A stretch of DNA of 32,467 nt from Sedimenticola sp. (GTDB lineage: Bacteria > Pseudomonadota > Gammaproteobacteria > Chromatiales > Chromatiaceae): NCBI GenBank assembly GCA_026196795.1, contig JAPHUE010000052.1, positions 1 to 32,467 of the forward strand, written 5' to 3'. Both the position numbers and the translations under genes were made by a program. Positions 20,324 through 31,274 of this stretch are shown in pieces. The notes beneath the pieces were generated by a model, which was given only the letters and a program-made list of their open reading frames with translations, was not told where the DNA came from and did no database searches. Numbering within the stretch: the stretch's first letter is position 1; every line of letters begins with the position of its first letter.

Positions 20324-20380
20324 TAATCAGGTAGGCAAAGGAAATTATCGAGAATACCAGGTAAAAAAACTACCTGATTA
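20324..20380. repeat. 11-bp perfect inverted repeat partly overlapping the short TIR element
   Basis: TAATCAGGTAG (20324-20334) and CTACCTGATTA (20370-20380) are perfect reverse complements. Confidence 0.6.
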
Positions 20381-20491
20381 CCCACTAAACTCAGCTCGAA
20401 AGCAGCGTACAGAAGCATTTTGGATTCAAAAAGTTGCGACTCTTTTCTTTAATTTCTTTGGTGCCATGGCTGAATAGGGTGGGTAATCAGG
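20373..20491. mobile_element. Short MITE/REP-like element (copy A), 119 bp with 13-bp perfect terminal inverted repeats
   Basis: CCTGATTACCCAC (20373-20385) and GTGGGTAATCAGG (20479-20491); imperfect inward extension (…CTCAGC / GGCTGAAT…). Internal CATGGCTGAA and ACAGAAGC segments shared with 29962-30296. Confidence 0.65.
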
Positions 20492-28234: not shown

Positions 28235-28327
28235 ACGAGTTTGAATTGATGACCTAAAACACCCGATAACGTCACTCCAAACCCCGTATGCTGGACGCCT
28301 TATTTGGCCACCATACTGGAGAACGCA

Positions 28328-29956
28328 ATGACACTGGCAGAAGCATTACTGAAGGGTTTAAAGGGGCACGGAGCCGCCGAACTGTTTGGTATACCCGGGG
28401 ATTTTGCCCTGCCTTTTTTTAAGGTCATTGAGCAGTCAGGCATTCTTCCGTTCTATACGCTGAGTCATGAGCCGGGTGTGGGATTTGCGGCTGATGCAGC
28501 CGGCCGTGGCCGGGGTTCGCTGGGTGTGGCGGTTGTGACCTATGGAGCCGGTGCCTTCAATATGCTGAACAGCGTAGCCTGTGCCTATGCGGAGAAATCA
28601 CCTCTGGTTGTTATCTCCGGTGCACCGGGAATCTCAGAACTGCAGGGCGATCTGTTGCTGCATCATCAGATCAAGACGCTGGGTTCTCAGTATGAAGTGA
28701 TGAAGGAGTTTACCTGTGATCAGGTGTTACTGAATGATCCGGCCAATGCCCCAGAGCAGATAGCCCGGGTCCTGCGCAGCTGTCTTGAACAGTCGCGGCC
28801 GGTGTATATCGAATTCCCCAGGGATCTGGTAAATGCCCCCTGTGATCCAGTCCCTCTGCTGCCGCCCACAACGGCAGACCCACAGGCATTGATTGACTGC
28901 GCTAGTGAAATATTGAATCGACTCGCCGCCGCTGAAAGGCCGGTCATCCTGGCGGGTGTGGAAGTACGGCGTTATGGCCTGGAGGATAAGGTGGCCGAGC
29001 TCTCACGGCGTCTGCAACTGCCGGTTGCCACCAGCTTCATGGGACGTGGCTTGTTCTCAGATTCAGATTGTCAGCTGATCGGTTCATACATTGGTATGGC
29101 AGGGGATCAGTCGATCAGTGAGACGGTGGAGACATCGGATCAATTACTCATGTTAGGGGTTATTGTTTGTGACTCAAATTTTGGGGTCTCTGCAAAACGA
29201 CTGGATATTCGCCATACCGTGAATGCCTCGGATCAAGAGGTAAAAGTGGGTTTTCACTTGTATCAACAGCTCTCACTGACCGAGTTGGTTGATGAGCTGC
29301 TGAACCAGACTGAGACCACCAATCATCATGCATCGCCGGTTAAACCTAACTATCCACGAGGTCTGGAAGCGGATGACAACCCGATTGTTCCAACCGATAT
29401 TGCCCGGGCCGTGAATGATCTGTTTGATCGTCATGGCCCCATGCCCATTGCCTCGGATATTGGTGATTGTCTGTTTACCGCCATGGATATGGATAACACG
29501 CAGCTGGTGGCACCAGGCTACTATGCGACGATGGGTTTCGGTGTACCCGCCGGGATGGGGTTGCAGGCGTCTACCGGACAGAGACCGATTATTCTTGTGG
29601 GTGATGGCGCCTTTCAGATGACCGGTTGGGAGCTGGGCAACTGCCGACGTTATGGTTGGGATCCTATTGTCCTGTTATTCAACAACAGCTGCTGGGGTAT
29701 GCTCGCGACATTCCAGCCAGAGAGCAGTTTCAATCACCTGGATGATTGGCATTTTGCGGATATGAGCGCATCGCTGGGTGGTGATGGAGTGCGGGTACAG
29801 ACCCGTGCTGAGTTACAGACGGCATTGAATCAGGCCGTAGAGACCCGGGGGCGTTTTCAACTTATTGAGATCATGATGACAGCCGATGCTCGCAGTGCCA
29901 CTTTGCAGCAGTTCGTGGAGGCCCAGGGGCGTCGCACTGGGATGCGTAAGGGATAA
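28328..29956 (+). CDS. Thiamine pyrophosphate-dependent decarboxylase (indolepyruvate/phenylpyruvate decarboxylase family)
   Basis: FGIPGDFALPFFKVIEQSGILPFYTLSHEPGVGFAADAAGR; TPP motif VGDGAFQMTGWELGNCRRYGWDPIVLLFNN. ATG 28328 after GGAGAACGCA preferred over track start 28304. Confidence 0.9.
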   Translation: MTLAEALLKGLKGHGAAELFGIPGDFALPFFKVIEQSGILPFYTLSHEPGVGFAADAAGRGRGSLGVAVVTYGAGAFNMLNSVACAYAEKSPLVVISGAPGISELQGDLLLHHQIKTLGSQYEVMKEFTCDQVLLNDPANAPEQIARVLRSCLEQSRPVYIEFPRDLVNAPCDPVPLLPPTTADPQALIDCASEILNRLAAAERPVILAGVEVRRYGLEDKVAELSRRLQLPVATSFMGRGLFSDSDCQLIGSYIGMAGDQSISETVETSDQLLMLGVIVCDSNFGVSAKRLDIRHTVNASDQEVKVGFHLYQQLSLTELVDELLNQTETTNHHASPVKPNYPRGLEADDNPIVPTDIARAVNDLFDRHGPMPIASDIGDCLFTAMDMDNTQLVAPGYYATMGFGVPAGMGLQASTGQRPIILVGDGAFQMTGWELGNCRRYGWDPIVLLFNNSCWGMLATFQPESSFNHLDDWHFADMSASLGGDGVRVQTRAELQTALNQAVETRGRFQLIEIMMTADARSATLQQFVEAQGRRTGMRKG

Positions 29957-29961
29957 GTGAA

Positions 29962-30296
29962 CCTGTTTGTCCGCGAGAGTCAGGCAGCAAACAGAAGCAC
30001 TTAATTCAAAGTGCTGCTGCGCGGCCATTTATTTGATCGGGGCTCGCGCGCCCCTACGGCGTGTCACTTTTGTTTCGGCAAAAGTGACCAAAACCATGGC
30101 TCCGTCATACCACCCTGCGCTACTCATAAATCAGGGGCGTCGCAAAACTCGCTAACGCTCAAACAGTTGCGACGCTGATCCCCGGTTTATTCCGTTGATC
30201 GGTGGTATGAAAGTCGCAATAGGTGCGGCATCTCAACATTGAGTGCCTTATTTTTTGATTCTGTGATGTCATGGCTGAACGTTGTAGGTAATCAGG
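29962..30296. mobile_element. Long composite intergenic repeat (copy B) related to the 20373-20491 element, with nested hairpins
   Basis: Shares ACAGAAGC, CATGGCTGAAnnnnGTnGGTAATCAGG and a degenerate left end with copy A. Hairpins: GGGGC/GCCCC (30039-30054), GTCACTTTTG/CAAAAGTGAC (30063-30088), CATACCACC/GGTGGTATG (30106-30209) enclosing GCGTCGCAA/TTGCGACGC (30137-30175). Confidence 0.6.
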
Positions 30297-30350
30297 CAAG
30301 TGAATAATAGGGTTTGATCAGAACGGTCTTGCTTGTGCTTGACCCGAACT

Positions 30351-31274
30351 TTACAACACCTTATCCCAACTCTCACTGGTGAGGTTGGCACCAAACAGGG
30401 GTTCATCCCACGCCTTGGTACAGGTGAAGCCGGCCTTGGTATAGAGCTTTCGTGCTTGGGTCAGACAAGAGCAGGTCCAGAGTGTCATCTGCTTGTAGCC
30501 ACACTGGCGGCAGAAATCAATACACTGCTCGATCAGTTGCCGACCAATCTGCATGCCGCGAAACTGGGGTTCAACCAGCAGCGCGCGCAGGCGGGCGGTC
30601 TCGTCACTCTCTTTTACGGCAAAGATGCTACCGGCAAACTGGCCATCTACCTCGGCAATCCAGCCCCGTTCGCAGGTCTCATCAACCGTGTTGGCAAACT
30701 GAGCCAGCACTTCCAATACGGTACGTTCAAAGCTTTTATCCCACTGGTACTCAGTGGCATAAAGTACGGCATGACGGTTAATGACCGTACCCAGATCGCC
30801 CAACTGAAGAGGACGAATCAGTACCCGCTGTTGTCGTGAGGGTTCCAGTAACGCCCTGATACGATTCATCAAACTGACCAGCTCACTACGCTGGGGCGGG
30901 GATAAGGGCGCTAGCAACTGCTCCAGATTGTTGCGAGCGAGATCATTAAGTGATTGTAATAGCTCCTCTCCTGATGGGGTGATCATGAGCTGTTTTCTGC
31001 GTCGATCAGACGGATCAGTAGCTCTATGCAGCAGGCCCATCTTCAGCAGTTTGGCCAGTATCCGGCTGACATAGCCCGGATCCATGCGTAGATAATCGGC
31101 AAGCACATTAGCGGTAAGGGTGCTCTCTTTGGCGACTTCAAATAGCACACGAATCTCCGGCAGATTCAGTGGCTGTCCCAGAAAACCTTCATCCAGAATG
31201 CCGATATGGCGGGTGTAGAAGCGATTGAATGACCGAACCTGATCAATTGCATCCTGCTGTGCAGTGGTTAGCAT
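30351..31274 (-). CDS. MarR-family HTH regulator fused to GNAT N-acetyltransferase
   Basis: N-terminal MarR wHTH (LTANVLADYLRMDPGYVSRILAKLLKMGLLHRATDPSDRRRKQLMITPSGEELL); C-terminal GNAT (LRALLVEPQFRGMQIGRQLIEQCIDFCRQCGYKQMTLWT...ARKLYTKAGFTCT). Confidence 0.93.
   Translation of the reverse strand: MLTTAQQDAIDQVRSFNRFYTRHIGILDEGFLGQPLNLPEIRVLFEVAKESTLTANVLADYLRMDPGYVSRILAKLLKMGLLHRATDPSDRRRKQLMITPSGEELLQSLNDLARNNLEQLLAPLSPPQRSELVSLMNRIRALLEPSRQQRVLIRPLQLGDLGTVINRHAVLYATEYQWDKSFERTVLEVLAQFANTVDETCERGWIAEVDGQFAGSIFAVKESDETARLRALLVEPQFRGMQIGRQLIEQCIDFCRQCGYKQMTLWTCSCLTQARKLYTKAGFTCTKAWDEPLFGANLTSESWDKVL

Follow-up and report, generated by a model that had tools for sequence, protein, structure and literature searches.

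We consider it highly probable that copy B, a 335-bp repeat in the 32,467-nucleotide stretch of Sedimenticola sp. DNA analysed here (the window), is an IS1595-type MITE that carries an independent palindromic module maintained at the DNA level, and that copy A, a shorter repeat in the same window, is a derivative that lost nearly all of this core. The identification of copy B as an IS1595-type MITE is firm, and it is well supported that the core represents an independent, class-wide palindromic family. Copy B and its ends are as follows.

29962–30296, plus strand: copy B, a complete non-autonomous IS1595-type element (MITE) with a structured core, 335 bp; recognized by its ends, its target-site duplication, a multi-copy family and element-free orthologous sites
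29954–29961, plus strand: left target-site duplication TAAGTGAA, 7 of 8 positions identical to the right copy
30297–30304, plus strand: right target-site duplication CAAGTGAA, from comparison of the flanking octamers
29962–29985, plus strand: left terminal inverted repeat, degenerate (CCTGTTTGTCCGCG..), alignable with the IS1595 end CCTGATTACCCAnnAAnCTCAGCC
30273–30296, minus strand: right terminal inverted repeat (CCTGATTACCTAC.. on the minus strand), matching the IS1595 end

Copy B extends from CCTG at 29962 to CAGG at 30296. As the first-pass annotation had stated, it starts 5 bases after the stop codon of its 5' neighbour, a TPP-enzyme (thiamine-diphosphate, decarboxylase-like) gene at 28304–29956, identified from the ORF list and Pfam. 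Its 3' neighbour is a convergent GNAT/MarR gene on the minus strand (30351–31274). No ORF of at least 100 aa, and hence no transposase gene, lies within 29962–30296. The end sequences ACAGAAGC and CATGGCTGAAcgttGTaGGTAATCAGG, described earlier as shared with copy A, were indeed present, with the left end of copy B being degenerate (CCTGTTTGTCCGC versus CCTGATTACCCAC). At two orthologous sites (G008:C46 and G005:C314) the GNAT gene directly follows the decarboxylase gene without the element; the two joints differ base for base, and the comparison shows presence and absence rather than the exact empty site. The site of copy B is a convergent 3' gap that tolerates insertion. The decarboxylase gene is itself partially duplicated in S. 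selenatireducens BK-1 (G002), where the complete gene is followed, after approximately 2 kb, by a second copy of its last 63 codons (C25:34167–34355, locus L132; 87% identical).

To define the family, we searched the draft genome of the source, an assembly of 2.77 Mb in 294 contigs at 78% completeness, and obtained 11 matches on 9 contigs, some of them small fragments; C209, detected by a covariance model, brought the number of contigs with full or partial copies to about 10. Further sites were found in S. thiotaurini BK-3 (G008; at least seven) and S. selenatireducens BK-1 (at least two). Both arms and the core were common to the aligned copies. Each of the nine genomes of the genus contained the pattern CCTGATTACCCAC, allowing one mismatch. 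In one of them (G001), it occurred 45 times, versus none for the reversed control, and the matches often faced each other at a distance of about 250 bp. One facing pair in G006 enclosed a 1.03-kb element (L077) with TAACGCTA on both flanks, and its ORFs matched two Pfam domains of IS1595 transposases, DDE (PF12762, E 1e-33) and zinc ribbon (PF12760, E 8e-15). Six relatives from the same bacterial family contained complete IS1595 elements of 1021–1045 bp with CCTGATTACCCAnnAAnCTCAGCC, or minor variants of it, at both ends; five of their 8-bp duplications were perfect, and the sixth agreed at 6 of 8 positions. The 24-bp ends of the MITEs matched L077, L259–L264, L268 and L269. Flanking octamers of 27 elements were identical at a mean of 6.78 of 8 positions, versus 3.11 with permuted flanks (p 5e-5); when the comparison was restricted to the eight long-form copies, the values were 5.25 and 3.23 (p 4.5e-4).

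The L077 transposase, the sole IS1595 transposase seen in the genus, was split over two frames, and open homologues of 331–336 aa were present in G043 and G809. PF12762 occurred in G006 within the genus and, according to a protein search covering 116 genomes of the bacterial family, in 39 of them; the PF12762/IS1595 transposase was not found in the 78% complete source draft. Current mobility of the copy B family is therefore unproven. IS1595 ends also surrounded palindromes unrelated to the core in G001, G003 and G007. The elements concerned (L078–L088) were MITEs, mostly of about 250–285 bp, whose IS1595 ends were the same and whose 8-bp duplications were perfect or nearly so; their interior was an unrelated palindrome (GCCGCGAATGAACGCG .. 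CGCGTTCATTCGCGGC), sometimes with a third repeat (GAGGAGTGGTGCAAGGATGCACC).

Copy A belongs to the same family.

20373–20491, plus strand: copy A, internally deleted member of copy B's family, 119 bp, with 13-bp perfect terminal inverted repeats (CCTGATTACCCAC) and a retained core fragment
20426–20458, plus strand: remnant of the long-form core within copy A, identical at 26 of 33 positions to the L045 and L032 cores

The 33-bp remnant corresponds to the apex of the core in the long form, and its score was reached in none of 500 shuffles. Because copy A keeps this remnant, it is a deletion derivative of the long form and not its ancestor, in agreement with the internal loss that the first-pass annotation had proposed. 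The 8-mers flanking copy A were alike at only 5 of 8 positions. It is extremely improbable that copies A and B share their ends by coincidence: the poor left end of copy B speaks for this, yet the ends of both copies are those of a multi-copy family whose members have 8-bp duplications, these ends match complete ISs, and copy A retains part of the core. Coincidental ends, which would have overturned the earlier annotation, were thus ruled out. Just left of copy A, AATCAGGTAG (20325–20334) matches CTACCTGATT (20370–20379), which lies at the left edge of copy A, exactly and in inverted orientation; it may be what is left of another IS1595 end.

The core of copy B contains the following helices.

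30011–30217, plus strand: structured core module, 207 bp, 7 helices in the aligned model; defined by covariance model R1 and covariation
30013–30025, plus strand: helix 1, outer hairpin GCTGC-TGC-GCGGC
30039–30054, plus strand: helix 2, GGGGC/GCCCC hairpin
30063–30088, plus strand: helix 3, 10-bp stem GTCACTTTTG-TTTCGG-CAAAAGTGAC
30105–30210, plus strand: helix 4, long-range stem TCATACCACC/GGTGGTATGA, arms 30105–30114 and 30201–30210
30127–30189, plus strand: helices 5–6, TAAATCAGGG/CCCCGGTTTA
30137–30175, plus strand: helix 7, 9 bp, GCGTCGCAA/TTGCGACGC, arms 30137–30145 and 30167–30175, conserved loop AACTCGCTnnCGCTCAAACAG

The perfect stems noted earlier (10 bp with the TTTCGG loop, and a nested 9-bp pair) were exact, with helix 7 nested inside helix 4. 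The region folded better than shuffled sequence, both as RNA (z −3.2, equalled by 1 of 200 shuffles) and as DNA (z −5.7, equalled by 0 of 100). The unpaired loop motifs GCGCTACTC, CGTTGCTC and CTCGCTnCGCTCAAACA were conserved across families. At three loci (L003:300–470, L006:1640–1950 and L034:1620–1800), another inverted repeat of the GTAGGTTGGGCTGA..TCAGCCCAACCTAC type was inserted in the core apex, at a similar place in the source genome and in G002, as if the apex were an insertion hot spot.

The core was also present without IS1595 ends in other genera of the bacterial family (G027, G031, G057 and G019). Of 369 genomes sampled from the class, 64 (about 1 in 6), belonging to 54 genera, matched a covariance model built from 14 copies; copy numbers per genome are lower bounds, as six candidates were scored in each. 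In a phylum sample of 399 genomes, 19 matched, all of the same class, the number of the 399 from other classes not being stated. Since the core occurs elsewhere without IS1595 ends, and these ends occur with other palindromes, ends and core are exchangeable. The composite element that the first-pass annotation had suggested is therefore supported.

Outside Sedimenticola, 34 of 66 core groups were tail-to-tail inverted pairs, and the outer hairpins of these pairs differed from genome to genome (e.g. GTGCGGCTGCGCCGC and GTATCGCTCCGCGATG; GTTTCGGCC ends in G169 and G285). Three inverted pairs (L173:1677–2830, L158:1745–2692 and L154:817–1501) each enclosed one small ORF (143, 261 and 131 aa, respectively) with no confident Pfam family; inverted pairs may sometimes carry cargo. 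A Blast search with the G169 pair recovered 15 plasmid records, from Burkholderia, Pasteurella, Aeromonas and other genera, most of which matched its first hairpin only, and gave no match in phages or E. coli. Copy B had no match in plasmids or phages, nor did the exact loop-motif pattern in IMG/VR; on these searches, phage or plasmid carriage of the core was rejected. Rfam 15 contained no family for the core, with no match at the gathering score and none credible at E 5. We found no account of it in the open-access literature; subscription papers may hold an earlier name.

Core groups outside Sedimenticola occupied convergent or co-directional gaps, with just one group in a divergent gap. Among the single copies there, the 5'-side gene ran into the core in 23 of 27 classified cases, and in Sedimenticola the orientation to genes was mixed without clear preference; these counts are approximate, as ORFs were called by length only. 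This context fits a repeat that is tolerated behind genes, for which a function is not needed. REPs likewise sit intergenically near gene 3' ends (PMC3733652). A terminator search of the copy B region gave three terminator-like matches (shuffle mean 0.9), none strong, and a terminator role for the core was rejected. In several genomes (loci L144, L176, L177 and L193), the outer end of a core pair comes directly after a hairpin that resembles a terminator and has a T run (..TTTTTTGTTTG); this arrangement may point to a target preference or to placement of the core downstream of termination.

We then asked whether the helices are kept as RNA or as DNA. Compensatory changes, anticipated by the first-pass annotation, were abundant. 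In a structure-blind alignment of 14 sequences, 94% of cells were paired, and double changes occurred in 19 of 48 pairs, versus 7.4 in shuffles and 2–4 for slid partners. Across 131 distinct copies, in an alignment fitted to the structure, 92% of cells were paired and 47 of 48 pairs had double substitutions (1783 double-changed cells versus 531). RNA tolerates G-U pairs, but not A-C. The core contained 232 G-U versus 169 A-C cells in total, 54 versus 77 where both neighbouring pairs were intact, and 19 versus 16 in the structure-blind set. G-U was in excess in helices 1 (81:16) and 8 (44:13), and the reverse was seen in helices 4 and 7. As a control, 6S RNA taken from 30 genomes in the same class showed 105 G-U versus 17 A-C, and its own strand folded better in 30 of 30, whereas the plus strand of the core folded better in only 8 of 38 sequences and the minus strand slightly better in 30 of 38. 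Alifold structures gave a G-U to A-C ratio of about 2:1 on either strand, the pairs there being chosen for that strand. The near-equal G-U and A-C counts, together with the lack of a folding advantage for the plus strand, suggest that the helices are maintained at the DNA level. As the helices are not uniform, the evidence favours but does not prove a DNA-level palindrome over a strand-specific RNA; a minus-strand RNA from the core is still conceivable. The stable transcript implied by the earlier annotation was not supported, as the changes lacked an RNA-type G-U excess.

The core might instead be a conserved non-coding RNA or a 3'-UTR element (terminator or stabilizer) whose RNA fold is selected, with the IS1595 ends merely spreading it. 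The strong covariation, the UUCG-type loop on the 10-bp stem and the location of most non-Sedimenticola copies just past a gene end, on the strand of the gene in the 23 of 27 single copies mentioned above, would all suit such an element. We nevertheless regard it as unlikely, given the near symmetry of G-U and A-C against 6:1 in 6S RNA, the better fold of the minus strand, the absence of an Rfam match, the weakness of the three terminator-like matches and the mixed orientation in Sedimenticola. Moreover, any tolerated repeat is expected to avoid divergent gaps; a 3'-UTR role was rejected as the cause of the orientation bias, which is largely explained by this avoidance and by the inverted pairs. 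Still less probable is a REP/BIME-like element mobilized through single-stranded DNA hairpins by a Y1 (RAYT) transposase. Multiple hairpins, inverted pairs and intergenic 3' locations are indeed found in REPs (PMC3733652), and Y1_Tnp was somewhat commoner in carriers of the core (31 of 40 versus 22 of 40). However, this association is weak (p 0.06, raw counts uncorrected for genome size), the unit is about 210 bp (core 207 bp) rather than 20–40 bp, and no constant GTAG or CGTC tag occurs in the core. Nine of the 40 carriers, including the multi-copy genomes G200, G285, G345 and G354, do without Y1_Tnp, and dependence of the core on RAYT was rejected on this ground.

Two further readings deserve more weight, although we hold each only tentatively. 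The covariation could be a mere by-product of template switching during replication, which would perfect palindromes without selection and leave the core functionless. The strand symmetry of the mismatches speaks for this reading, and template switching between arms reportedly creates and maintains hairpins (PMC8794818); it could keep the helices without selection. The conserved non-pairing motifs are not explained by arm-to-arm switching and suggest that it is only part of the explanation, although descent or copying within a family could account for them. It is likewise possible, with about as much doubt, that the core is a class-wide multi-hairpin DNA family of about 210 bp, with loop motifs conserved although unpaired, whose folded DNA is recognized by some recombinase or host protein and which switches vehicles, these being tail-to-tail pairs in most genera and IS1595 MITEs in Sedimenticola.

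In the reading that we prefer, an IS1595 MITE with an independent DNA-level module, copy B inserted behind the TPP-enzyme gene with formation of an 8-bp target-site duplication, and an IS1595 transposase acting in trans probably moved it. Between its ends it carries a passenger of about 207 bp with seven nested helices, which forms a repeat family of its own in other Gammaproteobacteria; copy A lost nearly all of this core. The helices may be kept as DNA through hairpin or cruciform recognition, or through template-switch correction between the arms. One type of transposon end with several unrelated palindromic interiors, and one module in different vehicles, indicate that ends and core evolve apart. 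The results also call for caution, as a repeat without RNA strand preference can covary almost throughout (47 of 48 pairs); covariation evidence alone would have mis-filed the core as RNA. A sequence found in about one-sixth of the sampled genomes of the class and absent from Rfam merits a name and a test of its recognizer.

Compared with known systems, the core resembles 6S RNA (RF00013) in its similar length and mostly paired structure, but it has neither the G-U excess nor the one-strand folding bias of 6S RNA. It shares with the GTAG- or CGTC-tagged REP/BIME repeats (PMC3733652) a palindromic nature, inverted dimers and positions near gene 3' ends; it differs in its length, its several helices and the lack of a constant tag or an obligatory Y1 transposase. 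Copy B shares its 24-bp termini and the 8-bp length of its target duplication with the IS1595 family (ISXO2-like DDE transposase, PF12762), but a palindromic module takes the place of the interior with its transposase. Bacterial MITEs have been reviewed as short, non-coding, intergenic and foldable sequences with terminal inverted repeats and duplications (PMC10969869). Copy B agrees with this description; in contrast to such MITEs, its interior is also found on its own throughout the class, and its ends recur in other MITEs around unrelated palindromes.
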